A DNA stretch of 64,000 nucleotides from Cohaesibacter sp. ES.047 (GTDB lineage Bacteria; Pseudomonadota; Alphaproteobacteria; Rhizobiales; Cohaesibacteraceae): contig NZ_LT907844.1 of assembly GCF_900215505.1 (NCBI RefSeq), positions 2,018,501 to 2,082,500 of the forward strand, given 5' to 3'. This document shows, in pieces, positions 1-40,743 of this stretch. How positions within the stretch are numbered: position 1 is the stretch's first letter; each line of letters opens with the position of its first letter. Under the pieces are notes generated by a model. It did no database searches. It was not told where the DNA came from and saw only the letters and a program-made list of their open reading frames with translations. The position numbers and the translations under genes were made by a program.

Positions 1-2
1 CC

Positions 3-812
3 TTCGTCGGCTATACCGGCAAGAACATGGTCGATGCGGTTGCCGTTGGTGAGCTTTTCTCGTCCCCCACTGCCAAGAGCTTCCTTGACGCGATCAAGGC
101 GGCCGATGGTGGTGCTGGCGTTGCCATTCTTTACGGCAACTACGCCGGCGACAACATGAATGTCAAAATGGCCACCAAGATGATCAAGAAGGACGGCATC
201 GAGGTGGGAACGGTCGTTGCCAATGATGATGTCTGTTCTGCGCCTGCTGACGAACTTGAAAAGCGACGCGGTGTTGCCGGTGAGATCTTTATGTGGAAGA
301 TCGGTGGTGCCAAGGCCGCAACGGGTGCTTCGCTTGAGGACGTCCTTGCCGCTGCGCAAAAGGCCATCGACAGCTGCCGCTCGGTCGGTCTGGGCCTTGG
401 TCCCTGCACCCTGCCAGCCGTTGGACATCCGAACTTTGAAATCGAGCCGGGCAAGATGGAAGTTGGCATCGGGCATCACGGTGAACCGGGTGTCCGGGTC
501 GAGGACTTGGGCACGGCAAACCAGATCGCCGATGACATGGTAAAAGTGGTGCTGGATGATCACAACCTTCCTGAAGGCACGGAAGTGGCGGTGCTCCTGT
601 CGGGTTTGGGCGCGACACCGGTGAACGAGCTCTATGTCCTTTATGATCGCATGGCCCAGCAGATCGAGGCGCGTGGTCTTTCCATTCACAAATCTTTTGT
701 CGGCAACTATTTCACCTCACTGGAAATGGTTGGCGCAACCCTCACGGTGATGGCGCTTGACGATGAACTCAAGTCGCTTCTGGACATGGAAACCGATTGT
801 CCTGGTCTTTAA
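3..812 (+). CDS. dhaK: Dihydroxyacetone kinase subunit DhaK (5'-truncated by window edge)
   Basis: Substrate-binding subunit of a dihydroxyacetone-type kinase, which holds the ketose as a hemiaminal on a histidine. The frame is open from the first bases and starts inside the fold (FVGYTGKNMVDAV), so roughly the first 60 residues lie outside the window. Visible family motifs are GELFSSP, the substrate-loop NYAGDNMN with its Asp, RRGVAGE, and GIGHHGEPG carrying the covalent-binding His. The C-terminal LSGLGATP and GNYFTSLEM blocks are intact. dhaL follows after 13 bases with a good ribosome site, so the pair is one operon. No DhaM phosphotransferase subunit is in the window. The true substrate could be dihydroxyacetone or a tetrulose. 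Confidence 0.93.
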   Translation, partial: FVGYTGKNMVDAVAVGELFSSPTAKSFLDAIKAADGGAGVAILYGNYAGDNMNVKMATKMIKKDGIEVGTVVANDDVCSAPADELEKRRGVAGEIFMWKIGGAKAATGASLEDVLAAAQKAIDSCRSVGLGLGPCTLPAVGHPNFEIEPGKMEVGIGHHGEPGVRVEDLGTANQIADDMVKVVLDDHNLPEGTEVAVLLSGLGATPVNELYVLYDRMAQQIEARGLSIHKSFVGNYFTSLEMVGATLTVMALDDELKSLLDMETDCPGL

Positions 813-825
813 GGGAGAGAATGAC

Positions 826-1464
826 ATGCAAGCTATTGCAAATAAGGGTGCCGGTAGCATCCTCGCCGAAATTGCGGCTGTGATCGTGGACAACAAGGCC
901 TATCTGTCAGAGATCGATGGCAAGATCGGGGACGGTGACCACGGCATCAACATGGCCAAGGGGTTCGGTCGTGCGGCTCAGGATCTGGATCCGGATGGCA
1001 CTCTGACCGATGCGATGGAAGTGCTTTCCAACGTGTTGATGACAGAGATCGGGGGCTCGATGGGGCCGCTCTATGGCATGATGTTCTCTGACATGGCCGA
1101 AGCCCTTGGTGATGCCGAGATGATTGATCCCAAAACGTTCAGCGCGATGCTTCGGGCCGGACATGACGGGGTACAGGGTATCGGCAACGCTCAGGTCGGG
1201 GACAAAACCTTGCTGGACACGCTGTCGCCAGCTCTCGAAAGCTTTGACAAGGCCATCGCTGATGGTCAGAGCTTTGCCGATGCGCTGGCATCGATGAAGG
1301 CTGCCGCCGAAGTCGGGCGTGACAGCACCATCGATCTTGTGGCCAAGCTCGGACGATCTGCGCGCCTCGGTGAACGGTCTCGCGGTGTTCTGGATGCTGG
1401 AGCGACCTCCTGCTGCCTGATCCTTTCCGGCTTTGCCGATGGTATTTCTGCCCGTCTGACGTGA
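826..1464 (+). CDS. dhaL: Dihydroxyacetone kinase subunit DhaL
   Basis: Nucleotide-binding subunit (about 212 residues, normal for DhaL) that transfers phosphate to the ketose held by DhaK. The magnesium/phosphate motif GDGDHG lies near residues 35-40; GGSMGPLYG, VGDKTLLD and the C-terminal ARLGERSRG-DAGA motif complete the eight-helix barrel signature. The start at 826 is chosen because AAGGGAGAGA sits 5-10 bases upstream and the protein then begins at the usual family position; the frame opens earlier inside dhaK but without a plausible start. A strong terminator follows 38 bases after the stop, separating this dhaK-dhaL pair from the next kinase genes. Confidence 0.92.
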   Translation: MQAIANKGAGSILAEIAAVIVDNKAYLSEIDGKIGDGDHGINMAKGFGRAAQDLDPDGTLTDAMEVLSNVLMTEIGGSMGPLYGMMFSDMAEALGDAEMIDPKTFSAMLRAGHDGVQGIGNAQVGDKTLLDTLSPALESFDKAIADGQSFADALASMKAAAEVGRDSTIDLVAKLGRSARLGERSRGVLDAGATSCCLILSGFADGISARLT

Positions 1465-1707: not shown

Positions 1708-2358
1708 ATGAAACAGGTTGATATCGAAGATATGGTCGCCTTCTTCCGGGAAGTGTCGATACGCATGAAGGAGCAGGCTGATTATCTCGGTCAGCTCGAT
1801 GGTGAAATTGGTGACGGCGATCACGGCTACACCATGGCGCGTGGCTTTTCCGCCATCGTTCAGGCGCTGAATGATGCCGACCTTCAATCGTTTGACCTGT
1901 CCGCGTTGTTCAACCGGAGCGCTGAGAGCTTTCTGGAAGCCGTCGGAGCTACCGCAGGCCCGCTCTATGCCTCGGGTCTGTTGTCTGCCAGCGACTTGGC
2001 TGATGGATGTAAAGCTCTGCCCGATAGTGACGCGCCCATGATCCTTGTCGCAATTTGCGAGGGTATTGGCGCGCGCGGAAAGGCGATTGCAGGAGACAAG
2101 ACCATGATGGATGTCTGGCTGCCGGTCGCCCAGACCATCCGGTCACTTCATCAGAAGGGAACTCCACTGCCCGCTATTCTGGCTGAGATCCGTGCGGTTG
2201 CGTCTCGCGGTGCAGAAAGCACCCGTTCCATGAAGGCCGTTCGTGGCCGCGCCGCCCGTCTTGGAGATCGCAGCCTTGGCCATATTGATCCGGGGGCCGC
2301 TTCGGCTGCCATTATCGTGGAGTGCTTTGCGGATACTTTTGAACAGAGGGGCTGCTAA
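1708..2358 (+). CDS. Second DhaL-type kinase subunit
   Basis: A complete second nucleotide-binding subunit of about 216 residues. GDGDHG near residues 35-40, GATAGPLYAS, GDKTMMDVWLP and ARLGDRSLGHIDPGAAS are all present, so it should be catalytically competent. The start is set at 1708 because the protein then begins just ahead of the first DhaL helix; the frame is open from 1465, and a start at 1591 has a better ribosome site but would add a 39-residue extension that does not look like DhaL. Its TAA overlaps the ATG of the next gene by one base, so translation is probably coupled. The only DhaK domain in its own unit is the one fused to the downstream regulator, suggesting they work as a pair. 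Confidence 0.88.
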   Translation: MKQVDIEDMVAFFREVSIRMKEQADYLGQLDGEIGDGDHGYTMARGFSAIVQALNDADLQSFDLSALFNRSAESFLEAVGATAGPLYASGLLSASDLADGCKALPDSDAPMILVAICEGIGARGKAIAGDKTMMDVWLPVAQTIRSLHQKGTPLPAILAEIRAVASRGAESTRSMKAVRGRAARLGDRSLGHIDPGAASAAIIVECFADTFEQRGC

Positions 2359-4442
2359 TGCCCCCCAAGAAAAAGCCGGGACCGGCTCGTTCTGAGAAGG
2401 CCGCTGGTGAAACGGCCATTCCTCTGCGGTTCGGTAATGATCCCCTTCTTTGGGCCAGTTGGCTCTATTACGAAGAAGGCCTGACGCAGGGTGATATTGC
2501 CCGCATCATCGGGGTCTCTCGGGCAACTGTTGTCTCCTATCTGGCCGATGCGCGCACGCGTGGTCTGGTCAATATTTCCATCGCAACTGAGCATTTGCGC
2601 ACCTTGTCCATTTCCAAGGCGCTCAAGGAGCATTTTGGCCTCAAGGACTGTGTGGTCATCCCCGGTGAAGGCGGCGACCGCTCGCTGATCGACCGGCTTG
2701 GCGCGGCCGGTGCGCAGGTGTTGGAGGAAATGCTCCGCTCGGGCGACACGATTGGGGTCGGCTGGGGGCGGACCGTGCTGGCCACGGCCAATGCACTCAG
2801 GATCGACAAGCTTGAGGACCTTCGGGTGGTGCAGGCAACAGGGTCCACGTCCAGTCATGTTCCCTACGCTCCTGCGGCTTGTGCGACCAAAATGGCGGCT
2901 GCTGTGGGTGCCGAATGCATCCCCTTGTCCGCTCCGGCCATCGTCTCCAGCCCCGAGCTTCACGGCATCCTGACAAGCGAAGCTCTGATCCGGGAACAGT
3001 TGGCATGCCTCAATGAGCTCGACAGCATTGTCTTCGGCATCGCCTCTATGCGTCCGGGTTCGACCCTGCACAGCTCCGGTTTTCTTCATGACGATCCGGT
3101 TCTGCGAGATGCCTATGCGACTGCTGTGGGGGCGATTGCCGGGCGCTACATCGATGATCGGGGCGCGTTGGTCCAAGGACCGCTTGAGGACCGCACAATC
3201 GGGATTTCACTCGAACAACTCGCCGCAGTGAAGACCCGCATCGCGATTGCCGGGGGGACGGATAAAGTTCCCGCGATTCTTGCCACCTTGCGTGGCGGCT
3301 ATATGAACGTACTGATCACCGATGCCACCACGGGCATTGGCATTCTGAGCGCCGAAGGCAAGAAGACCTTCATCCCGCGCGGAATAAGACAACAGGCCGA
3401 GGAGACGAGTGAAACGGTCGGGGCGGCCAGGAGCACCAGCATCAAGAAGTTCCTGAATGCGCCCGAGGACGCTATTGATGAGGCTCTGGAAGGCGTTGTC
3501 ATGCAGTATGCGGACTATTTGCAGCCGGTTAAAGCGTCCAACCGGGCGCTGGTGGCTCGTGATGGTCCTCGTCCGGGCAAGGTGGGGCTGGTCATCGGCG
3601 GCGGGGCCGGGCACGATCCCTATTTCTATGGGTATGTCGGGCGTGGGCTGGCGGACGCAGTTGCGATTGGCAATATTTTTGCCTCACCACCTCCGATGCC
3701 CATTCTTGACTGCACGAGAGCGGTCAATGGTGGTGCCGGAGTGGTGCATCTGTTCGGCAACTATTCAGGCGATGTCCTCAACTTCGAAATGGCCGCGGAC
3801 ATGGCCAAGCGTGAGGGCATCGATGTGCGGACCATCATCACCACCGATGACATCGCATCCTCTCGCAAGGAGGAGCGCGAAGGACGGCGCGGTGTTGCTG
3901 GTAATATCTTTGTCTTCAAGGTTGCGGGGGCTGCCTGCGATCAAATGTTGTCCATCGATCGGGTCGCGGCTCTGGCACGCAAGGCCAATGAACGAACCTA
4001 TACGGTTGGTGTAGCGTTGGAGCCCTGCTCGATGCCTGAGACACGCCGTCCCACGTTCGTGCTGGGGGATAACGAAATGGAAGTGGGCGTTGGGGTGCAT
4101 GGTGAGCCGGGCATTGCGCGCCAGCCCGTGGCCAGCGCCAATGATACGGCGGACATCATGATTGATCGCATTCTGGCGGAGATGGGCTCTGCAAGAGGCG
4201 AGGAGGTTGCATTGCTGGTCAACTCCTTGGGGGCAACACCCATGATGGAGCTGCACATCGTGGCGCGGCGTGTCCGCCAGCGGCTAAAGGCCCACAATGT
4301 CACCATTGCCCGGAGTTGGACGGGCAACTATTGCACATCCCTCGACATGTCCGGCGTGTCCATCTCGATGCTGCATCTGGATGCCGAACTCAAGGCCATG
4401 CTGGACCATCCCTGCGATGCTCCGGCCTTTCGGATTTCCTGA
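2358..4442 (+). CDS. SorC-family transcriptional regulator fused to a DhaK domain
   Basis: A 694-residue two-part protein. Residues about 41-65 form a SorC/DeoR-type helix-turn-helix (GLTQGDIARIIGVSRATV), and residues about 80-345 match the SorC sugar-binding domain (GVGWGRT, the TGS turn, the IAGG-K-AI block and a late GIL segment). From about 358 to the end it is a full DhaK: GGGAGHDP with His419, NYSGDVLNF with Asp472, and VGVHGEPG with His581, the covalent substrate His equivalent. All catalytic landmarks are kept, so the DhaK half may be an active kinase subunit served by the overlapping DhaL upstream, or a ligand sensor, or both. In E. coli separate DhaK and DhaL proteins control the regulator DhaR, which gives a precedent for such control. 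There is no frameshift or internal stop at the junction, so this looks like a true fusion. Confidence 0.88.
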   Translation: MPPKKKPGPARSEKAAGETAIPLRFGNDPLLWASWLYYEEGLTQGDIARIIGVSRATVVSYLADARTRGLVNISIATEHLRTLSISKALKEHFGLKDCVVIPGEGGDRSLIDRLGAAGAQVLEEMLRSGDTIGVGWGRTVLATANALRIDKLEDLRVVQATGSTSSHVPYAPAACATKMAAAVGAECIPLSAPAIVSSPELHGILTSEALIREQLACLNELDSIVFGIASMRPGSTLHSSGFLHDDPVLRDAYATAVGAIAGRYIDDRGALVQGPLEDRTIGISLEQLAAVKTRIAIAGGTDKVPAILATLRGGYMNVLITDATTGIGILSAEGKKTFIPRGIRQQAEETSETVGAARSTSIKKFLNAPEDAIDEALEGVVMQYADYLQPVKASNRALVARDGPRPGKVGLVIGGGAGHDPYFYGYVGRGLADAVAIGNIFASPPPMPILDCTRAVNGGAGVVHLFGNYSGDVLNFEMAADMAKREGIDVRTIITTDDIASSRKEEREGRRGVAGNIFVFKVAGAACDQMLSIDRVAALARKANERTYTVGVALEPCSMPETRRPTFVLGDNEMEVGVGVHGEPGIARQPVASANDTADIMIDRILAEMGSARGEEVALLVNSLGATPMMELHIVARRVRQRLKAHNVTIARSWTGNYCTSLDMSGVSISMLHLDAELKAMLDHPCDAPAFRIS

Positions 4443-10370: not shown

Positions 10371-10591
10371 GAAATCCACGCCAAGAGCATCCGGGCGAAC
10401 CGATGCAAGTGACGCCCACTGTTCAAGGCAAAACGACTGATCATCACCGAACGGCTTTCACGAGAGCGGCCTTTGCTTAACAAACCGTCTGGCTTTGTCT
10501 GTCTGTAGTTCAATTCTGCCTCGCTTCATGCCGCAAGACCGCGGCCGTGAATAGGCATGTGAGAAAACTCTCGATTTATGGAGAAATTAAA

Positions 10592-11569
10592 ATGAAAATT
10601 CTTGTCACTGGGGCAGGGGGATTTGTTGGTCAGCGCGTTGTGCGAAAGCTAATCGAGCTTGGGACAATCACTGTGGATGGTGTGGAAGCTCCCGTCACCA
10701 CCGTCTATGCCTGCGATCTTTTTGGCGATGCAGTGCAGGGTTTGGCCGATGAGTTCGACGCGGTCGAAGCGCTGGCTGGTGACCTCACGGATCCGGCCAT
10801 GGTGGCCAAGATCAAGGACATCGCACCTGATATCATCCTGCATCTGGCCGCTGTCGTCAGTTCGGCTGCCGAAGCTGACTTTGATCTGGGTATGAAGGTC
10901 AATGTCGACGCATTGCGTTCCCTCATCGACTGCTGCCGGGCACAGCCCAAGCCCCCGGTTCTGGTCTTCACGTCATCGATTGCCGTCTTCAGCTGCGAAG
11001 GCAATGCGGGAATTGACGAGTCATGCACGCCGATGCCGCTCTCTTCCTACGGGATGGAGAAGGTCGTGGGTGAATATCTTGTGCGCGATGCCAGCCGAAA
11101 AGGGTTCGTACGCGGCAGAACAATCCGTTTCCCGACCATCGCCGTTCGCCCCGGTAAACCGAACAGCGCGGCTTCCAGTTTTGCAAGTGGCATCATTCGC
11201 GAGCCTCTGGCAGGGCAAGAAGCGATTTTGCCAGTATCGCGCTCCATCCGTCTTCACCTCGGATCGCCTGATATGGCGGTAGGGTCGGTTGTTCATGCGA
11301 TTTCTCTGAAGCAGGACGTGCTTGGGGATCGCGGCGCCATCACCTTGCCTGGCCTCAGTGTCAGTGTTGAGGAAATGATCGGCGGGCTGCGCGCCATTGC
11401 AGGAGATGATGTGGCTGCGTTGGTCAAGGACCAGCCGGATGCCAAGATCGAAGCCATTGTTGCCACATGGCCGGGGTCCATCACGACGCCGGAAGCTGAA
11501 GCCCTGGGCTTCAAGCCTGACGCGCATTTTGATGATCTCATCACCGCTTACAAGAAAGCCTACGCCTAA
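10592..11569 (+). CDS. denD: D-erythronate dehydrogenase (SDR/epimerase family)
   Basis: NAD-dependent extended short-chain dehydrogenase of about 325 residues. The Rossmann motif GAGGFVG is at residues 7-13, the catalytic Ser at about 129 (VFTSSIAVF) and the YxxxK pair at Tyr153/Lys157 (SSYGMEKVVGEYL). The DenD family oxidises D-erythronate at C3 to 3-oxo-tetronate. This name is favoured over a general sugar epimerase because the isomerase, kinase, decarboxylase and L-threonate dehydrogenase of the same pathway follow within 6 kb. The start at 10592 has GGAGAAAT upstream; the frame opens 45 bases earlier without a ribosome site. Confidence 0.78.
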   Translation: MKILVTGAGGFVGQRVVRKLIELGTITVDGVEAPVTTVYACDLFGDAVQGLADEFDAVEALAGDLTDPAMVAKIKDIAPDIILHLAAVVSSAAEADFDLGMKVNVDALRSLIDCCRAQPKPPVLVFTSSIAVFSCEGNAGIDESCTPMPLSSYGMEKVVGEYLVRDASRKGFVRGRTIRFPTIAVRPGKPNSAASSFASGIIREPLAGQEAILPVSRSIRLHLGSPDMAVGSVVHAISLKQDVLGDRGAITLPGLSVSVEEMIGGLRAIAGDDVAALVKDQPDAKIEAIVATWPGSITTPEAEALGFKPDAHFDDLITAYKKAYA

Positions 11570-11650
11570 CCCTGAAGACGCTTGGAGCGCAGGTCTTGAC
11601 TGGCCTGCGACCCACCCTTTGACCAGATTCCACTAAAGGAAGCGAATATT

Positions 11651-12583
11651 ATGAGCAAGTACAGATGGACGCGCGATAATTGGCCGATTGCCTGTGCGAT
11701 GATCCCCTTTTCTCCGGTGTTGCCTGATGGCACTCTCGTTCAGGATGCGCCAGCCGAGGCGTGGGCTGAAACGTTGGCCCTGATTGCCGACGAAGGATTC
11801 ACCGAGCTTGATCCGACTGATAGCTGGATGCGGGTTGCTGATCTTGAGACATCACGCCTTGAAGACTTCAAGGCTGTCGTCAAGGAAGCCGGGTTGACCA
11901 TTCCGGCAATGTCGACATCGCGTAAATGCGTGATCGACAAGGATGTGGGGGATGAGATGCTGGCCTATTGCCACCGTTTCCTCGACACGGCTGCCGACCT
12001 GGGCGCTAAGGAAGTGGCCTTTGGGCTCTTTGGTCCCATCTTGCCAGCTCAGCAAAAGATGCTGTGGTTCTGGCTCGCCGAAGGCTACAGCAATCCCGAT
12101 GATCCGGAGACATGGCAGCTTGCCGTGAACCGGATCCGTGAGTTGGCCGACCATGCAAAGGAAGTCGGCATCGACATCGCGATGGAGATGTATGAAGACA
12201 CCTATATCGGCACGCCGGACAGCGCTGTTCGCTTCGTCACCGATGTGGATCGCGATAATGTGGGTATCTGTGCCGATATTGGCAACCTTGTGCGGCTACA
12301 TCGTCCCATGGAGAAATGGGACGTCATGCTCGCCAAGGTCGCTCCTTTCATGAAATACTGGCATGTAAAGAACTACATCCGCGATGAGGATCCCGAGAAT
12401 GGAACCTTTGCAACGGCGCCGGTTCCCCTCGAGTTCGGTGTGATCAATTATCGCGAAGCCATCCGGATGGCATTGGCCGAGGGCTTTTCGAGCCCGATCC
12501 TTCTGGAAAACTATGGCGGCGACGGGCTGTCGGTCTGCGGCAAGAACCTGCAGACACTTCGGCGCATTCTGCCGCGCGACTGA
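11651..12583 (+). CDS. Sugar isomerase/epimerase-like TIM-barrel protein
   Basis: About 310 residues of the xylose-isomerase-like TIM barrel (AP endonuclease family 2). Candidate metal ligands are Glu179 (IAMEMYED), Asp209 (GICADIGN), His238 (YWHVKNY) and Glu286 (LLENYGGDG), so it should be a divalent-metal enzyme. It follows denD by 81 bases on the same strand and ends at a strong terminator. The otnI-type isomerase of the pathway is a separate gene next door, so this protein must do something else: perhaps another acid-sugar isomerisation, or the 3-oxo-isoapionate decarboxylase (OiaC) reaction known from the same superfamily. The sequence does not decide. Confidence 0.75.
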   Translation: MSKYRWTRDNWPIACAMIPFSPVLPDGTLVQDAPAEAWAETLALIADEGFTELDPTDSWMRVADLETSRLEDFKAVVKEAGLTIPAMSTSRKCVIDKDVGDEMLAYCHRFLDTAADLGAKEVAFGLFGPILPAQQKMLWFWLAEGYSNPDDPETWQLAVNRIRELADHAKEVGIDIAMEMYEDTYIGTPDSAVRFVTDVDRDNVGICADIGNLVRLHRPMEKWDVMLAKVAPFMKYWHVKNYIRDEDPENGTFATAPVPLEFGVINYREAIRMALAEGFSSPILLENYGGDGLSVCGKNLQTLRRILPRD

Positions 12584-12614
12584 TGTTGCGTGGCTAACAT
12601 AGCCAAGAAACGAG

Positions 12615-12650
12615 AAAAGCCTTGCCGATCATCTGATCGGCAAGGCTTTT
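12615..12650. terminator. Bidirectional terminator
   Basis: A perfect 16-bp stem (AAAAGCCTTGCCGATC and its complement) with the loop ATCT is A-rich on one side and T-rich on the other. It lies between two convergent transcription units and can terminate both. Confidence 0.93.
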
Positions 12651-12673
12651 CTTTTGTCGGTACCTTTGCGGGA

Positions 12674-13435
12674 TTACTTTTTGAGCCAGCCCAAGGTCTG
12701 GTCCGTTGGGGTGTTGCCGGGCTTGTATTCAGCACCAAGCGGCGCAGTCCAACCCAGTTTCTCTGTCATCTCGAAAATGAAATTGTAATTCACTTCCCCA
12801 TGATCTGGTGTCCCCCGATCCGGAACAGACGCGAACTGAATATGCCCGGTCAAAGGCAGCATCTTTTCCAGTCTCCTGACAAGATCCCCTTCCATGATCT
12901 GCAGATGATAGCAGTCGAACATCAGCTTGAGATTGGGCGCGCCGACCTCAAGGATGATCGCTTTTGCCTGCTCTGATGTGGCCAGAAAATAGTTCGGCGC
13001 ATCATAGTGATTGAGGGGCTCGATCAAGATCGTGATGCCGTGTTTCAAGGCTTGCTCGCAGGCATATGTCAAATTGGAGATGAAGGTCGCGTGCGCCTTC
13101 GGGCCTCCTGCAAAACCTGCCATGACATGGACATTTGGCGTGCCAATGCGGGCGGCGTAGTCAAGCGCCTGATCAATGGCCGCACGGGCTTCCTGTTCCC
13201 GTCCCGGGATGGCCGCCGTGCCATTGTCGCCCGAGGCCACATCGCCTCTGATCGTGTTGAGGCCAAGCATGATGAGGCCCGTTTCATCTAGGGCGGCTTT
13301 TACGTCTTCAGCAGGCACCTCAAAGGGCCAGTGACACTCGACGGCATCAAAACCGGCAGCTTTCGCAGCGCGAATGGCGTCAGGCAACGATAGGTCGCTC
13401 CAGAGAAAGCCGAGGTTGGCAGAAAATTGTGTCAT
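12674..13435 (-). CDS. otnI: 2-oxo-tetronate isomerase (hydroxypyruvate isomerase family)
   Basis: About 253 residues of the Hyi-like TIM barrel. The residues equivalent to the metal/catalytic set of hydroxypyruvate isomerase are in place: Glu139 (ILIEPLNHYD), Asp174 (LMFDCYHLQ), Gln200 (HIQFAS) and Glu236 (GAEYKPG), with the N-terminal FSANLGFLW. In the acid-sugar pathway OtnI turns 2-oxo-tetronate, made from L-threonate by LtnD, into 3-oxo-tetronate. Its ATG shares a base with the stop of otnC (TGATG), so it is the last gene of an ltnD-otnK-otnC-otnI operon. Hydroxypyruvate isomerase activity is the main alternative. Confidence 0.85.
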   Translation of the reverse strand: MTQFSANLGFLWSDLSLPDAIRAAKAAGFDAVECHWPFEVPAEDVKAALDETGLIMLGLNTIRGDVASGDNGTAAIPGREQEARAAIDQALDYAARIGTPNVHVMAGFAGGPKAHATFISNLTYACEQALKHGITILIEPLNHYDAPNYFLATSEQAKAIILEVGAPNLKLMFDCYHLQIMEGDLVRRLEKMLPLTGHIQFASVPDRGTPDHGEVNYNFIFEMTEKLGWTAPLGAEYKPGNTPTDQTLGWLKK

Positions 13436-14082
13436 CACTCCCACTCCACATTGAATTTGGTAACCAGATTCTGCACCTGCGTCTCGCTCAGGCCTCTTGG
13501 GCTATGGCCTCTGGTCAATATTGCGAGCCGGGCGGTATCCTCCAACTCCTCGATTGCATTGCACGCGGCTTCAACGTCCTTTGCCGCGACAACCGGACCA
13601 TGATTTGCAAGCATCACGGCAGAGCGTTTGCCTGCCAATCCCTTGACCGCATCACCGATTGCGGCGTCCCCTGGCATGAAGAACGGCAGAAGCTTGACCT
13701 TGCCGAGTTTCATGATGGCGTAGGGTGTGAGATGGGGCAGGAAGTCATCTTCGTCGGCTTCCGGCATCATGGAAAGAGCGACCGAATGGCAAGAGTGCAA
13801 ATGCACCACGGCACCGGCGGTTGAGCGTGTGTCATAGAAGGCGGAATGCAGAGGCATTTCCTTGGTCGGCTTGTCACCGCTGACCAGCATCCCTTTGGCA
13901 TCAAACCGGCTCAGTCTGGCCGGATCCAGTCGGCCAAAGCAAGAACCGGATGGCGAAACCAGAAGGCCGCCATCGGACGTACGTGCGGAGATGTTGCCGG
14001 TTGAGCCGCCGGTCAGACCGCGATCAAACATCGACTTGGCCAGCAGGCACATCAGCTCGCGCAATTGTGCTTCTTCGCTCAT
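13435..14082 (-). CDS. otnC: 3-oxo-tetronate 4-phosphate decarboxylase (class II aldolase family)
   Basis: About 215 residues of the class II aldolase/adducin fold. Zinc ligands are His94 and His96 in HLHSCH and His161 in LANHGP; the catalytic acid is probably Glu75 (KEMPLH). GNISAR near residue 30 binds phosphate. The family member OtnC splits 3-oxo-tetronate 4-phosphate to dihydroxyacetone phosphate and CO2. Its ATG overlaps the end of otnK by four bases, and otnI overlaps its stop, so three enzymes are translationally linked. A fuculose-phosphate-type aldolase is the alternative, but the neighbours argue for OtnC. Confidence 0.87.
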   Translation of the reverse strand: MSEEAQLRELMCLLAKSMFDRGLTGGSTGNISARTSDGGLLVSPSGSCFGRLDPARLSRFDAKGMLVSGDKPTKEMPLHSAFYDTRSTAGAVVHLHSCHSVALSMMPEADEDDFLPHLTPYAIMKLGKVKLLPFFMPGDAAIGDAVKGLAGKRSAVMLANHGPVVAAKDVEAACNAIEELEDTARLAILTRGHSPRGLSETQVQNLVTKFNVEWE

Positions 14083-15356
14083 TGACCTTCGATCTCCTCT
14101 AGCTTGCGGAGTGCATCGTCAAAGAAGCGAACGTCACCGAAGTTGCCTGACTTTAGCGTCAGTGCGATTGTCTTGCCGCCCGTGTTGCAGAAGGACCAGG
14201 GCACACCGGGGGAGATCTCGGCGCTCACATCCAGAGTGGTGACGTCAAGGGCTTTGGTTACGGCGCCCGATGTCTCGCCGCCGGCAACGATGAAGCGTTC
14301 CGCTCCCTGATCGCGTGCAGCGACGGCGAGTTTTGCCAAGGCGTCTTCGACGATTGCGCCTGCTTGCATCGTGCCGAGTTTTTCCTGAGCGATCCTGACC
14401 TGATCCGGTTCTGCTGAAGCATAAATCAGCGGAGCTTTTGCCAGATCCTGCGCCGCAAGCCATTCCAAAGCCTTTTCCGGACCGTTTTCGTCCAGATCCA
14501 GCGGATCGAGCCGATAGCTCGGGGCTGCTTCGCTGTAAGCGGCGACCTGCGCGCGGGTCTTGGCGGAGCAGGAGCCGGACAGGACAATCGCTGTTTTTGC
14601 CAAGTCGGGCACTTGCGTCTTTGCTTCATCCGCAGACAGTACACCCTGTTGCAAATACAAATCTGGCAGAGGCATCGCGATGGCGCTGCCGCCAGTCAGA
14701 AGGGGCATGTCTTGACAGGCTTCGGCGATGAGGTAGAGATCCTCATTGGCCACAGCATCAATCACCACATGGGCAACGCCGTCTTTGCGCAGTTCTTCAA
14801 GCCGTGCCTTGATCGCCTCGGGGCCCTTGGCAACACAGAGCCGATTGGCAAGCCCGACCGGTTTGGTTACTTGCGGCTCAAGCAAACGCATCAGGTTGCT
14901 GTCGCGCATGGGAGTGAGGGGATGGTCCTTCATCGGACTCTCGGCAATGGGCTGTTCACCGACAAACAGGTTGCCCATGAAGATCGAGCGGCCGTTCTCG
15001 GGGAATGCCGGGCAATAGATCGTCTGATCGGTGCCGATTTCTTCCATCAGGGCTTCGGCAATCGGGCCGATGTTGCCCTTAGCTGTGGAATCAAAAGTCG
15101 AGCAGTATTTCCAGAAGAAGTGCGTTGCACCAGCCCGTTTCAGCCAGTCGTAGGCTGCGCGTACTTCCGGCAGGGCTTCATCAAACGGTGCAGTTCTGCA
15201 TTTCAAGGCGATGACTTCGAATGTCGTCGCGTCCGTTGGCTCTTCCGATGGCACGCCCATCCGCAGGGATACTTTCACCCCAGAGCGTGCCAACAGACCG
15301 GCCAGATCTGTTGCTCCTGTAAAATCATCGGCTATGCAGCCAAGCAAGGTTCCCAT
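14079..15356 (-). CDS. otnK: 3-oxo-tetronate kinase (DUF1537 four-carbon acid sugar kinase)
   Basis: About 425 residues with both DUF1537 domains: the N-terminal sugar-binding part opens with GCIADDFTGATDLAG and has KYCSTFDSTAKGNIG and AFPENGR; the C-terminal nucleotide-binding part has VLSGSCSAKTRAQV and VAGGETSGAV. It phosphorylates 3-oxo-tetronate at O4 with ATP. Two in-frame ATGs lie at 15362 and 15356; the second is preferred because AGGAGG is eight bases upstream of it but only two from the first. It is the second of two DUF1537 kinases in the window, and differs strongly from the one at 46.2 kb. Confidence 0.88.
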   Translation of the reverse strand: MGTLLGCIADDFTGATDLAGLLARSGVKVSLRMGVPSEEPTDATTFEVIALKCRTAPFDEALPEVRAAYDWLKRAGATHFFWKYCSTFDSTAKGNIGPIAEALMEEIGTDQTIYCPAFPENGRSIFMGNLFVGEQPIAESPMKDHPLTPMRDSNLMRLLEPQVTKPVGLANRLCVAKGPEAIKARLEELRKDGVAHVVIDAVANEDLYLIAEACQDMPLLTGGSAIAMPLPDLYLQQGVLSADEAKTQVPDLAKTAIVLSGSCSAKTRAQVAAYSEAAPSYRLDPLDLDENGPEKALEWLAAQDLAKAPLIYASAEPDQVRIAQEKLGTMQAGAIVEDALAKLAVAARDQGAERFIVAGGETSGAVTKALDVTTLDVSAEISPGVPWSFCNTGGKTIALTLKSGNFGDVRFFDDALRKLEEIEGQ

Positions 15357-15484
15357 TGGCATATCCTCCTGGGCATAATGGCTTTGATTGAGTGTGGGCG
15401 AGCCGTCTTTGGGAAAGCTGATCTAGGGTCGATCAACAAACGCGGACTGTTCGCCCAATTTCGTGTAGTGGTCGGCCTTGCAGA

Positions 15485-16375
15485 TCAGTCCATGCCGGGC
15501 AGGGTGATGCCTGCATTGCGGGCGTAGACCTTGGCAACGGCCGCGTCGTCTTCCATGCCGAGGCCTGTGCCCGCTGCCGCAAGATATTGTTGCAGAGCTG
15601 CCGCGGTGATCGGAGCGCCGAATTTGGCACCCTTGGCAATGTCGAGGACAATGCCCAGATCCTTCAGCCAGATGTTGATTGCGGAGTGGGGGGTATAATC
15701 GCCAGCAACAATATGAGGCGCGCGGTTCTCGAGCATCCAGCTGGTGCCTGCGCATTTGGAAATGACCTCGACAAAACTTGCCGGATCAACCCCTTGCGTC
15801 ATGCCGAAGGTGATGGCTTCGCCCATTGCTGCGATGTGAATCCCCGCCAGCATCTGGTTGACTGCTTTCATTGCGGAGCCTGCGCCTGCGCTGTCTCCCA
15901 ACCGGAAAACCGTTTCTGCAGTGGCATCGAGTAGCGCTTCTGCAGCGGCATAGGCAGCCGGGGTCGCTGACGACAGGATGGAGAGCTGGCCTTGTGCCGC
16001 TTTGATCGCGCCTCCTGAAATCGGTGCGTCCACGTAATGGACACCGACCTCAGCACATTTCGCTTCCATTGAGCGCGCGAAATCCGGCGCAACGGTCGCG
16101 CAGGACATAACGACTGCGCCTTTCTTGAGTTTGGAAAGAATGCCCTCGTCGCCGACGAGGACTGCCTCGGTCTGTGCTGCGTTGAGAACAATCAGTACGG
16201 CCGCGTCAAGGTCGGGGGCGATATCGGCGAGCTCTGCAGACTTTCCGCCCTCATCGACAAGGCTTTGCATCCGCTCAGGCACGATATCATATCCGTAAGT
16301 GTCATGCCCCGCCCGTATCAGGCTTTGTGCCATGCCGTAGCCCATGGAACCGAGACCGATTGCTGCTACCTTCAT
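15485..16375 (-). CDS. ltnD: L-threonate dehydrogenase (beta-hydroxyacid dehydrogenase family)
   Basis: About 296 residues. The NAD-binding GLGSMG motif is at residues 7-12, the substrate motif DAPISGG at 116-122, and the catalytic Lys170 with Asn173 in MKAVNQML, the standard 3-hydroxyisobutyrate dehydrogenase pattern. LtnD oxidises L-threonate at C2 to 2-oxo-tetronate for OtnI. It is the first gene of the minus-strand operon, and its promoter faces the LacI-type regulator across a palindromic operator. The start at 16375 has GGAGGAAGGAATACCAAG upstream; the frame opens 39 bases earlier. A tartronate-semialdehyde reductase role is possible but fits the neighbours less well. Confidence 0.83.
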   Translation of the reverse strand: MKVAAIGLGSMGYGMAQSLIRAGHDTYGYDIVPERMQSLVDEGGKSAELADIAPDLDAAVLIVLNAAQTEAVLVGDEGILSKLKKGAVVMSCATVAPDFARSMEAKCAEVGVHYVDAPISGGAIKAAQGQLSILSSATPAAYAAAEALLDATAETVFRLGDSAGAGSAMKAVNQMLAGIHIAAMGEAITFGMTQGVDPASFVEVISKCAGTSWMLENRAPHIVAGDYTPHSAINIWLKDLGIVLDIAKGAKFGAPITAAALQQYLAAAGTGLGMEDDAAVAKVYARNAGITLPGMD

Positions 16376-16460
16376 CTTGGTATTCCTTCCTCCAGCAATT
16401 CCAGTATTTGGCAAATTGCCTTGCCAACTCCGAAGAGTGTTTGTAATGTAATCAAGTTGG

Positions 16461-35072: not shown

Positions 35073-35852
35073 TCAGGCGGCGCCCAGCTTGGCGGAACAT
35101 TTGGCAAGGATGTCAAGGTAACCTTCAACATTCCAGGCCGAGCGACCGATGAACAGGCCGTCGATATTCGGGCAGGAAATCAATTCTTCGCAGTTGCCCG
35201 GATTGACCGAACCGCCATAGAGACAAAGCGGGCGGTGTCCCAGCACGTCTTCTGCAACGGCCAAAATCTCTGCCTGCCGCGCATCTGCATAGTCCGAGCT
35301 TGCCGGGATGCCGTTGTCGCCAATGGCCCAAACCGGCTCATAGGCCAGCAGGACCGGTGCTGTCTTCTGGTCACCCGACAATTTGCCAAGCGCACCGCGC
35401 ACTTCCTCTTCAAGAACCTGTTGGGCTCTGCCGGATTCCTTTTCTTTCAGCGTTTCCCCAACACAGATCAGAGGCGTTAGGCCATGGCGGATGGCCGCCT
35501 CCGTTTTCAGCCCGACCGTCTCATTGGTCTCACCAAAGAACTCACGCCGTTCTGAATGGCCCAGCTCGACAAGATCAAGGTTGCAATCTGTCAGCATGAG
35601 GGGCGAAACCTCCCCCGTCCAGGCCCCTTCGTCCTTCCAATGCATATTCTGTGCACCCACTTTTACCGATGTGTCCGCGAGCAGGGACTTGACCTCTCGC
35701 ACGGCAGTAAAAGGCGGCACGATAAAGCGCTGGATGCGCGGATCCCGTTCAGCATCAGCAGCCTTCAGTGCGCTTGCAAAAGCCGTAGCCTCTGCCAGCG
35801 TCTTGTTCATCTTCCAGCTTGTGCCAATCCAGAATTGAGGGGTGACAGTCAT
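35073..35852 (-). CDS. lerI: TPI-family isomerase, probably L-erythrulose 1-phosphate isomerase
   Basis: About 259 residues of the triose-phosphate isomerase fold. Lys14 (SWKMNK), His99 (LGHSERR) and Glu172 (AYEPVWAIG) keep the catalytic Lys, His and Glu. The usual Asn of NWKMN is replaced by Ser12, a change unlike housekeeping TPI. In Brucella EryH and in mycobacterial LerI a second TPI-like enzyme converts L-erythrulose 1-phosphate to D-erythrulose 4-phosphate. It follows the DeoR gene by three bases and is convergent with the RpiB-like partner. Ordinary TPI activity cannot be excluded. Confidence 0.83.
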   Translation of the reverse strand: MTVTPQFWIGTSWKMNKTLAEATAFASALKAADAERDPRIQRFIVPPFTAVREVKSLLADTSVKVGAQNMHWKDEGAWTGEVSPLMLTDCNLDLVELGHSERREFFGETNETVGLKTEAAIRHGLTPLICVGETLKEKESGRAQQVLEEEVRGALGKLSGDQKTAPVLLAYEPVWAIGDNGIPASSDYADARQAEILAVAEDVLGHRPLCLYGGSVNPGNCEELISCPNIDGLFIGRSAWNVEGYLDILAKCSAKLGAA

Positions 35853-35855
35853 GTT

Positions 35856-36620
35856 TTAGGCCTTTGCAATTGTGAGGTTCAATCCTGCCCCTTTCAGGTC
35901 TTCGACTACATTGGCTTCTGGCTTGTCATCGGTGATAATCCAGTCGAAAGCTTTGAGGTCCGACAAAACGTGGAGGGCTGTGCGATTGAAACGGGAGTGG
36001 TTTATGAGGAGGCATTTGCGCGTTCCCGCAAGCATCATCGCCTGCTTGGCCCGCACAATATTGTCATCCATGTGAAATGCCTGTAGTCCCGACACGGCTG
36101 GTGCGGAAATGAATGCGATGTCAGCTCGCAACCGATGAAGTGATTCCTCGGTTACGACCCCGCTGTAAGCGTTGAACTTGGCTGAATAGATCCCGCCGAG
36201 GGCCAGCAATGTGATCCCGGCCTCGCCCAGCAAGTCGCTGATGACGGCCTGATTGTTGGTGATAACGGTCAGGGGGCGTCTCTGGGGCAGCATGGAGCCA
36301 AGAACGGCCGACATGGAACCGTCATTGATCATGACCGTCATGCCCGGCTCGATTAGGGACAGGGCCTGCCGGGCCATGCGATCTTTGGCTTCGGCATCCT
36401 GCTGGACGCGAATCCGGAAATCGCTCTCGAATTGGTTGCCCGCATCTGCGGTGGCACCGCCTCGCACCTTGCGCAAAACGCCGCTTTGTTCGAGCTCGTC
36501 GAGATCGCGGTGAATGGTCATTTTCGACACACTGAACCTCTCGGCCAGATCGTCGATATCGACGCTTCTGTGCTCTACCAAAAGATCCATAATCAGCTGT
36601 CTTCGGTCTTCGCCTCTCAC
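35856..36620 (-). CDS. DeoR-family transcriptional regulator
   Basis: About 254 residues. The DeoR helix-turn-helix (RRQLIMDLLVEHRSVDIDDLAERFSVSKMTIHRDLDEL) and the DEXH-like sugar-phosphate domain (INDGSMSAVLGSML, LGGIYSAKFNAYSG) are both complete. It starts with GTG preceded by GGAGGTGGCGC. The perfect inverted repeat of AAAATCACATA just upstream suggests autoregulation, and the same motif before tkt and rpiB links it to the tetrose genes. It corresponds in position to the rhizobial EryR-type regulator in an eryR-tpiB-rpiB cluster. Confidence 0.88.
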   Translation of the reverse strand: MRGEDRRQLIMDLLVEHRSVDIDDLAERFSVSKMTIHRDLDELEQSGVLRKVRGGATADAGNQFESDFRIRVQQDAEAKDRMARQALSLIEPGMTVMINDGSMSAVLGSMLPQRRPLTVITNNQAVISDLLGEAGITLLALGGIYSAKFNAYSGVVTEESLHRLRADIAFISAPAVSGLQAFHMDDNIVRAKQAMMLAGTRKCLLINHSRFNRTALHVLSDLKAFDWIITDDKPEANVVEDLKGAGLNLTIAKA

Positions 36621-36670
36621 GCGCCACCTCCATATCCGGCATTTCAGCGGATGTTAAATTTGTAACATAT

Positions 36671-36703
36671 AAAATCACATATTCAATAAAATTATGTGAT
36701 TTT
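36671..36703. promoter_or_regulatory. DeoR operator (inverted repeat)
   Basis: AAAATCACATA at 36671-36681 and its exact complement at 36693-36703 are separated by 11 bases, so the half-site centres are 22 bases or two helical turns apart. It lies 51 bases upstream of the DeoR start and shares its core with the tkt/rpiB operators. Confidence 0.8.
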
Positions 36704-36965
36704 GTGAGATGTTTTCGTGACATGCCCCAAATTCTATAAATGCCACATGTCTGCTCCGAAAGCAGATGCCGTTTCTCCCGAAGTCTGCGCACAGTATAAA
36801 AAGGCTGTCCGGCGATTGCTATGTGAAACCCGCCACAAAATCACGGATGTCTTGTAAATTCGCATCGACTATCCTAGGGTTAGGACCATGTATTTATGCT
36901 TCAGACGCTTCACTTCTAGCGCCAATCAATAGCCAAGATTCACCCGCAGAGAGACCTGTTTCCGT

Positions 36966-37922
36966 ATGGCCGACACGATCAGCCCGCTTGATGAAGAGCT
37001 TGAGCGCGCGCGCGTCGCCTGGCTCTATTTTATCGGTGGCCAGACCCAGCAAGAAATCGCCAGACGGATGAATGTCACGCGCCTGAAGGTCAACAAGATC
37101 ATCGGGCAGGTGAGGCTTTCTGGCAATGTGCAGATCAATGTCAATCTACCGCTGACAGACTGTATAGAATTGGCCGAAAAGGTCTCGACACGCTACGGGC
37201 TGATCGAAACCGTCGCTGTGCCGGATCTGGATGATTTCATGAACCAGAAGCGCGTGATCGGTGAAGCCGCCGGATCGCTTGCCAATGGATTGATCGAGGG
37301 GAGGGACATGGGCGTGGGGGTCGGCTCTGGCCGGACCTTGAGCTTTGTTGTCAGGAGCGTGCAGGCCAAACCCAAATTCGACAGTTGGGTTGTCGGGCTA
37401 ACCGGAGGCGTGACCAGTGGCTCGTCCAGCAATTCCTTTGGCGTGGCGACGACCCTTGCCCATGTTCTGGGTGTCGAATGCCACTATCTAACGGCCCCGA
37501 TCTATTGCGCCAATCCCGAAAGCCGCAACGCGTTGTTGCTCAATGACGAACTGACCGATGTACTGGCGCGTACCGAAATCGCAGATGTTGGAATTGTCTC
37601 CTGTGGTCACCTGAAGCTGGAGACCTCGCTCACCCAGATACGGGTTGTGAAAGACAATTTCGATGCGGTGCAGAAACTGGGCGCTGTGGGGGAGTTCATG
37701 GGGTGTTTTCTTGATGCTTTTGGCAAGCCGATTGATCACTTCCTCAATGACTCGGTTATTGCCCTGCCACCAGACAAGATGAAGCTGAAACCAATTTCAA
37801 TGCTTGTTTCTGGGGGGCTCGAGAAGATCCCCATCATCCGGGCCATCCTGCGGGCCGGCTATGTCAATCGCCTTGTGACCAACGAGGGGGTTGCCCGAGC
37901 GTTGCTACAGGGGCCGCGCTGA
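36966..37922 (+). CDS. eryD: SorC-family regulator, EryD-like
   Basis: About 318 residues. The helix-turn-helix is near residues 24-46 (GGQTQQEIARRMNVTRLKVNKII) and the SorC sugar-binding domain follows (MGVGVGSGRTLSFV, VVGLTGGV, CGHLKLET, late LVSGGLEKIPIIRAILRAGYVNRLVTNEGVARALL). In Brucella EryD represses the erythritol operon and is released by erythritol. This gene is convergent with the DhaKL/ABC operon and adjacent to the DeoR gene, so it probably senses a tetritol, tetrulose or its phosphate. It lacks the DhaK extension found on the SorC protein at 2.4 kb, which makes an instructive comparison. Confidence 0.83.
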   Translation: MADTISPLDEELERARVAWLYFIGGQTQQEIARRMNVTRLKVNKIIGQVRLSGNVQINVNLPLTDCIELAEKVSTRYGLIETVAVPDLDDFMNQKRVIGEAAGSLANGLIEGRDMGVGVGSGRTLSFVVRSVQAKPKFDSWVVGLTGGVTSGSSSNSFGVATTLAHVLGVECHYLTAPIYCANPESRNALLLNDELTDVLARTEIADVGIVSCGHLKLETSLTQIRVVKDNFDAVQKLGAVGEFMGCFLDAFGKPIDHFLNDSVIALPPDKMKLKPISMLVSGGLEKIPIIRAILRAGYVNRLVTNEGVARALLQGPR

Positions 37923-37972
37923 GTGCAGCCCCTGTGCGTCGATCTCGCCAAAAGACGATGATACGGTCTCGA

Positions 37973-39739
37973 TCAGGCCATCGCTTGGTCGAGTGCTTCG
38001 CGCATGGCGCGCAATGTGATGAATGTCGAAGCGGCGCCGGGGTCAATATGACCGACCGCACGTTCGCCCAACTTGGCAGAGCGTCCCCTGCGTGAGAGCA
38101 TCGGCGCAGTTGCGTTCATGCCGCTCTCGCCACCTTTTTGAGCGGCGGCCATCACGTCGGCCGCAGATCCACCTTTGGATGCTACCTGCTGCGCTTCCTC
38201 AACAGCAGGCACCCAGGCGTCGATCATGGTCTTGTCGCCAGGACTGGCGCGACCGCGATCCTGAATGCCCTGACAGGCAGCGCTCAGCCATTCGGCCATC
38301 GCGGCTCCATCAAGATTGAGACGATTGTTGACAGCCGTTCCCGCCCTCAGAAAAGCCGTAGCATAAAGAGGGCCGGACGACGCTCCCACTGCATCAAGAA
38401 AGGCTTTCGCCATTCGTTTGCACATGCTTTCGATGGTTTCATCATCTGAGGCTTCTTCCAGCGCATGCTGGACGGCTTTCCAGCCGATTTCCATCGTCAT
38501 GCCGTGATCGCCATCACCAATGACACCATCCAGTTCAGACAGCCAATCCTTCTTCGCAATAATCTCATCGCCGACATTGTGCATCATGGCTTTGAAGATC
38601 GCCGGAGTGACATCGCCCTCGGTGATCAGGTCGCGCGGTGTTTCCTGACTGGTGACGACTTTTTCGACGGGCGCGGCCACCGGCTTGCGGCGCACCGCTT
38701 TTTCGCTGGTCCGCTCCATGGTGCCGACGACCAGTGCCGGCGTGCGGCAGGGATGATCAAGCAGCGCTTCAAGGGTGTCATCGAGCTTGAGCAGGGTGAC
38801 CGATGCACCAGCCATTTCGAGCGACGTGGCATATTCGCCAACCCATGAGGCATGGATGCTGACGCCCTCGCTATCAAGACGCTGTTTGACGCGGCGAAAC
38901 AGGATGTAGAGTTCGATCTGCGAGGTTGCACCAAGCCCGTTGACCAGCACCGCGACGCGGTCACCTGAAGACAGACCGGCTTCCTTGAGAATGGTGTCGA
39001 CCAGTTCGTCGGCTACCTCATCTGCCGGGGCGAGCTTGTGGCGCCGGATACCGGGCTCGCCATGAAGCCCCATGCCGATTTCCATATCCTCGTCGTTGAT
39101 CACGAAGTTGGGCTTGCCGGTTTGGGGCAATGAGCAAGGGCTGAGAGCCACCCCCATGGAGAAGGTTGCGTCATTGGCAGCCCGTGCCATTGCCTCGACC
39201 CGCGCCAAAGGCTCACCCAGATCAGCAGCAGCACCGGCAATTTTGAAAACGAAGAAGTCGCCCGCAATGCCGCGTCGTTCGGAACGGCGATCAAGCGGTG
39301 CGGACGCTACGTCATCGGTTACTGCAACATGGCGCACAGCAATGCCGTTCTGCTCCAGCTCCTCGGCCGCCATCGTAAAATTGAGCACGTCGCCAGTATA
39401 GTTGCCATAGAGCATCAGGATACCCGCACCGCCGTCTGCGGCCTGCGTCGCCTCGACGATGTGGGCCGGAGAGGGGGAGGCAAAGATATTGCCAACGGCC
39501 GCGGCGTCTGCAAGTCCGGACCCGACATAGCCTGCGAAGGCCGGTTCATGCCCGGACCCTCCGCCAACCACGATGCCTACCTTGCCGTCTCGCGGTCCAT
39601 CAAGCGAGACAACTGCCCGTCCGGTCTTTCCGCTCACGCCCAGCATATCGGGATGTGCAGCCACCAGTCCCTCGATCAACTCGTCAATGATAGCCTCGGG
39701 AGCGTTGATCAACTTTTTGGTTTTGATTGCTTCAGTCAT
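37973..39739 (-). CDS. Single-chain dihydroxyacetone-type kinase (DhaK-DhaL), probable erythrulose kinase
   Basis: About 588 residues. The N-terminal DhaK domain (to about 335) has GGGSGHEP with His64, NYTGDVLN with Asp117 and MGLHGEPG with covalent His226. After a basic/proline linker the DhaL domain (about 375-588) has GDGDHGMTM, GASSGPLYAT, GDKTMIDAWVP and SAKLGERAVGHIDPGAAS. Such ATP-dependent kinases phosphorylate dihydroxyacetone or, in tetrose pathways, D- or L-erythrulose (DerK/LerK). The ATG at 39739 is preferred over an upstream TTG. It is the last gene of a binding protein-ATPase-permease-kinase operon, so the imported sugar is probably its substrate. Confidence 0.88.
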   Translation of the reverse strand: MTEAIKTKKLINAPEAIIDELIEGLVAAHPDMLGVSGKTGRAVVSLDGPRDGKVGIVVGGGSGHEPAFAGYVGSGLADAAAVGNIFASPSPAHIVEATQAADGGAGILMLYGNYTGDVLNFTMAAEELEQNGIAVRHVAVTDDVASAPLDRRSERRGIAGDFFVFKIAGAAADLGEPLARVEAMARAANDATFSMGVALSPCSLPQTGKPNFVINDEDMEIGMGLHGEPGIRRHKLAPADEVADELVDTILKEAGLSSGDRVAVLVNGLGATSQIELYILFRRVKQRLDSEGVSIHASWVGEYATSLEMAGASVTLLKLDDTLEALLDHPCRTPALVVGTMERTSEKAVRRKPVAAPVEKVVTSQETPRDLITEGDVTPAIFKAMMHNVGDEIIAKKDWLSELDGVIGDGDHGMTMEIGWKAVQHALEEASDDETIESMCKRMAKAFLDAVGASSGPLYATAFLRAGTAVNNRLNLDGAAMAEWLSAACQGIQDRGRASPGDKTMIDAWVPAVEEAQQVASKGGSAADVMAAAQKGGESGMNATAPMLSRRGRSAKLGERAVGHIDPGAASTFITLRAMREALDQAMA

Positions 39740-39774
39740 GATTTCTTCTTTCGTCAATTCCAATTCGTGGCCGC

Positions 39775-40743
39775 TTAGGCATCCGAGCGAAGATAACGGC
39801 GTGAGACGGCGTCAAAGGAAATCGCGAGTACAACAATCGCGCCCGAAACGATGCCCTGCCAATAGGGTGACACACCGAAAAGAACGATAATATTCTCAAT
39901 GATGGCAATGATACCGGCGCCAAATATTGCGCCGACCGGACTACCGATGCCGCCCGTTGTTGCAACGCCCCCAATCACTGAAGCTGCGATGGGCGCAAGA
40001 ACCCATGTGTTGCCGATTGACGGCTGGGCCGTTCCAAGGCGGGCAACCATAAGCACGCCGGCAAGAGCGGCAAGGCCACCCGCACATGCGAACGTCAATG
40101 TCCGAATGTAGTCAACGCGGATGCCCAGCATTCTTGCCCCGGCGGGGTTGTTGCCAATGGCATACATGTAGCGGCCGATCGGCGTTTTCAGCATCAGGAA
40201 GGAAGCAACAATCAACGCAACCAACATGATGAGGAATGGAACCGGGACACCCATCAAGGCTCCCCTGCCCAGAAACTGCACTTCCTTTGGCACACCGGTA
40301 ATGGCAACCCCTCGGGTCAGCACCAGAATGGCACCGCCAAACACGCCGGCCATACCGATGGTCAAGACCAGCGAATGCAGCCTGAGGGTTGTGACGAGAA
40401 TCCCGTTCACGAAGCCCATCAAGACACCCAAAAAGATTGCAATGAGCATGGAGAGATAGGGGTTGATCCCGTATCTGACCATCAGGATGCCAGAGATGAT
40501 CCCGCATAGGCCGCCGATTGCGCCAAGGGAGAGGTCGAGTTCACCAAGCACCATCAAAGACGACTGGGCAATTGTGATAAGGCCAACAAAGGCGAGGCCG
40601 CGCGCTATGACCGAGAGGTTGTAACCACTCAGAAAATAGGGAGAGGCCAGCGAAGACAGCACGAAGATAATGACCAAGGCAACGAACACGCCCGCAATCG
40701 GGCTGCGTAGTTTGATCATTAAATTACTGGATTGAGCGTTCAT
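39775..40743 (-). CDS. ABC sugar permease, RbsC type
   Basis: About 322 residues, with eight or more hydrophobic segments and the RbsC/XylH-family motifs VIARGLAFVGLITIAQSSLMVLGELDLSLGAI and NPAGARMLGIRVDYIRT. It dimerises to form the channel for the ribose-type importer. Its ATG overlaps the ATPase stop (ATGA). Confidence 0.93.
   Translation of the reverse strand: MNAQSSNLMIKLRSPIAGVFVALVIIFVLSSLASPYFLSGYNLSVIARGLAFVGLITIAQSSLMVLGELDLSLGAIGGLCGIISGILMVRYGINPYLSMLIAIFLGVLMGFVNGILVTTLRLHSLVLTIGMAGVFGGAILVLTRGVAITGVPKEVQFLGRGALMGVPVPFLIMLVALIVASFLMLKTPIGRYMYAIGNNPAGARMLGIRVDYIRTLTFACAGGLAALAGVLMVARLGTAQPSIGNTWVLAPIAASVIGGVATTGGIGSPVGAIFGAGIIAIIENIIVLFGVSPYWQGIVSGAIVVLAISFDAVSRRYLRSDA

Follow-up and report, generated by a model that had tools for sequence, protein, structure and literature searches.

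When a metabolic enzyme controls transcription, it is usually a separate protein or one that moonlights. In Escherichia coli, DhaR senses through contacts with DhaK and DhaL, and a kinase subunit acts on the transcription of its own operon. In L. lactis, the DhaK relative DhaQ takes part in regulation with DhaS; it is a separate protein and is not known to be catalytic. SorC/DeoR-type regulators (LsrR, SorC, DeoR, CggR), linked to sugar phosphates, carry a helix-turn-helix (HTH) and a Sugar-bind domain and stop there. SorC-type proteins form tetramers, and family members besides LsrR also bind phosphorylated sugars.

We analysed a 64,000-nucleotide stretch of the Cohaesibacter sp. ES.047 genome (the window), in which a protein shares the HTH and Sugar-bind domain with these regulators but continues with a complete kinase subunit. 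The control that we propose resembles the E. coli case in that a kinase subunit would act on its own operon; there the proteins are separate and the activator is of another family, whereas here the link is covalent and the regulator SorC-type. The original prediction knew of no described system of this design. We likewise found no published study of a SorC-DhaK fusion in the open-licence literature, but the architecture already has a name at NCBI, 'bifunctional sugar-binding transcriptional regulator/dihydroxyacetone kinase subunit DhaK', which appears under 7 of 40 listed plasmid records. That name is automatic, with no experiment found behind it. As far as seen in the open-licence literature, two known parts occur here in a joined form whose working is apparently unstudied.

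A SorC-type regulator joined to a complete DhaK domain

The 694-residue frame contains no stop and encodes an HTH, a SorC-type Sugar-bind domain, a flexible linker and a complete DhaK domain, in that order (Table 1), so translation and Pfam bear out the joined architecture originally proposed. Sugar-bind (PF04198) scores 200.8 bits against a cut-off of 27 (E 2.9e-59), and Dak1 (PF02733) is matched over its entire profile (1–313 of 313; E 1.1e-116). The N-terminal HTH matches solely general HTH models in Pfam, all below cut-off; from residue 32–34 on, the fusion aligns with full-length LsrR, SorC and DeoR, its nearest PDB relatives (3e-31, 5.4e-31 and 3.2e-29). Assignment to the SorC type is based on the Sugar-bind score together with an HTH continuous with the family by alignment. 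Structure matches include LsrR entries with phospho-AI-2 and 8r7y, DeoR with its operator. The Schiff-base lysine of DeoR has no counterpart in the fusion, which carries Ala160 there. All 42 whole fusions that we collected retain S54, R55, A65, R66 and G69 in the HTH and recognition helix region, and W136, G137, R138, Q159, G162 and K303 in the Sugar-bind domain.

Table 1 Features of the operon and of the fusion protein, in window coordinates
Feature	Position	Strand	Evidence or remark
K1, separate DhaK, first gene of the operon	1..812 (cut by window edge)	+	Dak1 match, key residues
L1, DhaL partner of K1	826..1464	+	ORF 757-1464, internal ATG at 826
L2 (DhaL2), DhaL paired with the fusion	1708..2358	+	Pfam Dak2, NCBIfam DhaL
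SorC-DhaK fusion, 694 aa	2358..4442	+	translation, Pfam, residue alignment, DhaK tree
HTH, residues 42-71	2481..2570	+	alignment to PDB relatives, conservation
Sugar-bind (SorC effector) domain, residues 81-330	2598..3347	+	Pfam, alignment, conservation
Variable linker, residues ~336-361	3363..3440	+	length comparison, dN/dS, model pLDDT
DhaK (Dak1) domain, residues 378-690	3489..4427	+	Pfam, residues, structure match
DhaK catalytic codons His419, Asp472, His581	3612-3614, 3771-3773, 4098-4100	+	

The DhaK half has the fold and triad of E. coli DhaKLM and the C. freundii ATP-type Dak. E. coli DhaK is its best Foldseek match (1.1e-36), with 41% identity over the domain, and alignment equates His419, Asp472 and His581 with H56, D109 and H218 of that protein. 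All three key residues named in the original prediction are thus present, and the triad is kept in 42/42 fusion frames. Besides being joined to a DNA-binding protein, the domain differs from E. coli DhaK in having Gly at the position of Lys104 and in falling below the DhaK equivalog cut-off (TIGR02363; 362.5 bits against 406.25). It also remains below that of the DhaQ coactivator (TIGR02362; 218.6 against 413.25). DhaQ entries (2iu4, 2iu6) and 4lrx, DhaR(N)-DhaK, are among the structural matches. A dead, DhaQ-like kinase, considered as a candidate, was weakened by the complete residues, which set the domain apart from non-catalytic DhaQ, and by the presence of DhaL2.

Four within-genus pairs gave dN/dS of 0.047–0.106 for the SorC part and 0.053–0.085 for the DhaK part, with synonymous sites near saturation; both domains are under purifying selection. 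For the linker, dN/dS was computable in two of the four pairs (0.48–0.77). Its length varies from 26 to 36 aa (41 of 42 fusions measured), and pLDDT is <50 at residues 338–359 in AlphaFold model 2. Such a variable, low-confidence segment suggests a tether more than a rigid mechanical lever, which bears on the original suggestion that the kinase could report its substrate occupancy directly to DNA. Model 1 had low confidence around His581, and model 2 was better; with a pTM of 0.52, model 2 is unreliable in its inter-domain placement as a guide to coupling.

Operon partners, phosphoryl donor and substrate

The operon runs K1, L1, L2, fusion. Our initial notion of the fusion as its only kinase proved wrong, since K1 and L1 precede it. 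K1 begins ~180–210 bp upstream of the window (gene at 11790-12812 of L007, the locus in its own genome), its likelier start Met being L007:11820, common to relatives; the in-window part matches Dak1 (Pfam, E 1.3e-90) with key residues kept. For L1, whose start at ATG 826 is our choice, Pfam reports Dak2 for 829-1464 (E 9.8e-51) and NCBIfam DhaL at 170.2 bits (cut-off 138.3). L2 is the complete preceding DhaL of the original prediction (Dak2 E 1e-44; DhaL 173.9 bits against the same cut-off), and the predicted one-base overlap is there: its stop TAA (2356-2358) and the fusion's start ATG (2358-2360) form TAATG.

A K1-type DhaK lies within ~6 kb of the fusion in 39/42 loci, being absent from L057, L143 and L144, and L1 was found in 40/42, with L143 and L144 lacking both. 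DhaL2 adjoins the fusion in 41/42 (upstream in some groups, downstream in others); L040 is the sole locus without it. Its nucleotide-site motifs Dx3GDxDHG, GPLY, GDKTM and DPGA are kept in 41/41. The GDKTM Asp retained in all 41 is replaced by Glu, Gln or His in 10 of the 11 DhaL genes found at loci L151-L162, which carry unfused DhaK.

In the genome, a single 5.11-Mb contig with six Dak1 places, no match to DhaM was found (TIGR02364, 0 matches at E 0.01; control matches in 3/14), in contrast to E. coli DhaKLM. A PTS-dependent DhaKLM system, defined by a DhaM in the genome, was thus not found, and because of this the phosphoryl donor of the fused kinase is probably ATP. The original idea that the fusion condenses the E. 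coli DhaR circuit into one protein fits neither this lack of a DhaM match nor a SorC half with its own sugar pocket.

The same genome holds DhaK-DhaL genes at G000:C1:1601112 and 4638996 with identical bit scores and protein start; the pair is a recent duplicate, and one copy lies, by eye, near transposase-like genes. Within the window, a second cluster (35073-42233) contains TPI, a DeoR-like gene, an unfused SorC (+), a DhaK-DhaL fusion (-) and sugar ABC genes, an ordinary separate-protein arrangement inside the same stretch as the SorC-DhaK fusion.

The DhaK domain groups with DhaKs of C4-sugar-like clusters, and for this reason we consider a four-carbon ketose a likelier substrate than dihydroxyacetone, giving it about an even chance. 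Erythrulose-type kinases (LerK/DerK) act on D- or L-erythrulose. Gly replaces Lys104 in 42/42 fusions, and the same holds for the aligned rows of K1, unfused DhaK and DhaK-DhaL; apart from E. coli itself, a single aligned row, an E. coli-like one, retains the lysine. With the equivalog score given above, this argues against dihydroxyacetone as the likeliest substrate. A TPI-like gene lies within the locus stretch in 8 of the 12 loci with an unfused DhaK of the fused type. Downstream of the fusion at L057 come DenD-like and TIM-barrel genes and an OiaX gene; OiaX, a 3-oxo-isoapionate-4-phosphate decarboxylase scoring over cut-off, is encoded close by at L057:12153-13646. GolD/DthD-type dehydrogenase genes, which suggest polyol catabolism, occur near 25/42 fusions (24 labelled; that of L014 annotated, its protein passing the family cut-off); none was found for the operon studied here within L007. 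Elsewhere in the window (10547-16414), D-erythronate/L-threonate degradation genes stand beside a TRAP transporter, DenD, OtnC, OtnK and LtnD scoring over NCBI equivalog cut-offs and OtnI below.

Distribution, origin and a candidate operator

SorC-DhaK fusions form a family rather than an isolated case, with members in other alphaproteobacteria. A search for the architecture across genomes collected the set of 42: our own, 3 from plasmids, 18 from genome contigs (among 80 loci kept of 232 encoding a relative) and 20 from further genomes. L028 and L147 within it have identical DhaK and SorC parts. Left outside were L045 (cut by a contig end), L122/G501 (three stops in the frame), L123/G697 (partial), L015 (same species as L013), L169 and L170. 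Neighbourhood maps were drawn from longest ORFs, which places some starts too early.

Counts from the genome searches are lower bounds. In the order, 21/397 genomes have a whole stop-free fusion, 7 of them in the window's genus; the 33 genomes with matches at E 1e-122 comprise these 21, ten with DhaK only, one with stops and one partial. The family has fusions in 7/20 genomes, all of that genus. A single genome of the class sample (1/385), our own, reached E 1e-120, and the phylum sample has whole fusions in 5/398, with DhaK only in 2 more. Hosts include Cohaesibacter, Tropicimonas, Rhodobacter, Paracoccus and Aureimonas, and Cohaesibacter haloalkalitolerans is the closest named relative of the window (80% identity). 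Among plasmids, 111/72,556 records have a single place that spans 80% or more of the query; Sinorhizobium and Rhizobium are frequent among the 40 matches listed, and one copy lies on pSymB of the standard laboratory strain Sinorhizobium meliloti 1021.

A tree of 106 DhaK domains shows K1 as one clade (100/100) and splits the fused domains into two groups, one of 40 (100/98) and one of L143 and L144 (100/98) that sits next to 12 unfused DhaKs. A single group of all 42 was not rejected (AU p 0.105). In a quick tree, L143 and L144 have SorC parts that fall in the common SorC group, which also contains three unfused SorC. Given this shared group and the AU test, a single fusion whose SorC half was subsequently lost in the unfused line is possible, as are two separate fusion events. 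The DhaL trees give the same picture: DhaL1 forms one clade, and DhaL2 follows the fused-type DhaK.

Upstream of the operon lie two 16-bp near-palindromes of the form TTTGACAAnTGTCAAA with a spacing of 21 bp, at L007:11498 and 11519 (a 37-bp pair, C1:2017998-2018034 in the genome). They stand ~290 bp ahead of the first gene and ~500 bp ahead of the window. The motif emerged from palindromic EM (width 16) on 24 fusion-operon upstream regions, with a score of 417 against 250–262 for three shuffles. In these regions L136 and L040 lacked a good site because the ORF start was placed too early; a scan of the whole locus showed one in each. We then scanned each locus with matrices from the other two locus groups, asking for two sites scoring at least 20. 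A pair at exactly 21 bp was present in 29/42 fusion loci (8/10, 9/16 and 12/16 by group) and in 0/210 Markov sequences, whereas the 43 other spacings from 17 to 60 give 0–7; the loci are related, hence these counts are not independent. The groups were our own definition, the Tropicimonas loci L029 and L057 being placed with Cohaesibacter according to the protein tree. Among the 13 loci below the pair threshold, L029, L044 and L057 have a single strong site and L035, L037 and L038 fall just under; L030 and L031 lack upstream DNA, and L041 and L142 have nothing convincing.

The sequence TTTGACAWWTGWYAAA has one perfect match in the window's genome, the operator itself; allowing one mismatch adds two more, and the reversed control gives one. 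As a caution on the motif, TTGACA doubles as the -35 consensus; a promoter scan of the operon's own upstream region gave no sigma-70 promoter at the operator, so repression by overlap is no more than a possibility. The site follows the SorC half, since two loci with an unfused SorC and K1 (L165, L167) have a pair at 20 bp, and none was found in the 12 loci with an unfused fused-type DhaK or in 6 DhaK-DhaL or other own-genome and genus control loci (closest score 19.8, L166). L165:7683-17895 itself encodes SorC, sugar ABC, a PfkB-type kinase, a FucA-like aldolase, K1 and L1, without a fused DhaK. The DNA-binding half of the original prediction is supported, with this pair as its candidate operator.

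Proposed working and alternatives

We propose an autoregulating repressor with its own active ketose kinase, its product being the simplest inducer; as a whole, this reading falls just short of an even chance. That the fusion regulates its own operon through the operator pair is very likely, judging from the sequences compared. It would be the operon's own SorC-type regulator, most probably a repressor, with dimers sitting side by side on the two near-palindromes, which are 21 bp, or two helical turns, apart. Binding as a dimer of dimers would fit SorC-type proteins, as the paired sites fit SorC/DeoR-type regulators in general, and would control all four genes, the regulator's included. The fused kinase is likely active: it would be catalytically complete, of the ATP type, and would work with the DhaL encoded just before it, with a ketose, probably a four-carbon one, as its substrate. 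A phosphorylated sugar from that pathway, in the simplest case what the kinase produces, would occupy the SorC pocket and free the DNA, so that a cell with the sugar would make the inducer on the regulator itself. The product is the simplest link because solved relatives bind phosphorylated sugars and the attached kinase would make a sugar phosphate; by this analogy we favour it as the inducer only tentatively. A stricter form, in which the kinase product or a DhaK reaction intermediate (with DhaL2) opens the SorC pocket and releases the operator, is possible though somewhat less probable still. It would unite sensing, inducer synthesis and DNA binding in one enzyme that is widespread in alphaproteobacteria.

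The inducer may instead be made by K1, present in 39/42 fusion loci, and the SorC ligand may belong to the K1 branch, given that the same SorC subfamily also occurs unfused beside K1 at L165 and L167. If so, the halves could be joined merely for co-expression or stoichiometry, without cross-talk, the SorC half sensing a K1-branch metabolite. The variable and poorly modelled linker, with its dN/dS of 0.48–0.77 where computable, is consistent with this, as are the shared operator type at L165 and L167 and the 12 loci where DhaKs of the fused type stand alone; still, the fusion persists in three Alphaproteobacteria groups despite rearranged gene orders, and a single origin was not rejected. On balance we think an arrangement without cross-talk rather unlikely.

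The DhaK domain could also serve mainly as a sensor, of the sugar or of the nucleotide state of DhaL2, on behalf of the SorC half, much as Lactococcus DhaQ serves DhaS, leaving catabolism to K1 and L1 (in 39 and 40 of 42 loci). K1 is indeed the more conserved, at 70–95% identity to the window's copy versus 56–91% for the fused DhaK, and DhaQ structures are among the matches; but the triad is complete throughout, a dedicated complete DhaL accompanies 41/42 fusions, the DhaQ model score is far below its cut-off, and at L057 (without K1) and at L143 and L144 (without K1 and L1) the fusion is the sole DhaK found in the locus stretch. A sensor role is accordingly improbable. A frame artefact, pseudogene or assembly error, for which the stops in G501 might speak, has next to no chance against 42 open frames whose two domains are both under purifying selection. 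Because other genomes contain an identically joined frame, a sequencing error at the junction is in practice excluded, and a broken or mis-joined frame was rejected.

The preferred reading, an autoregulating repressor with its own kinase, puts an apparently active kinase covalently into the operon's regulator, with its phosphoryl partner adjoining and the operator conserved. The SorC-DhaK fusion offers a direct way to test if a regulator can produce the inducer to which it responds.
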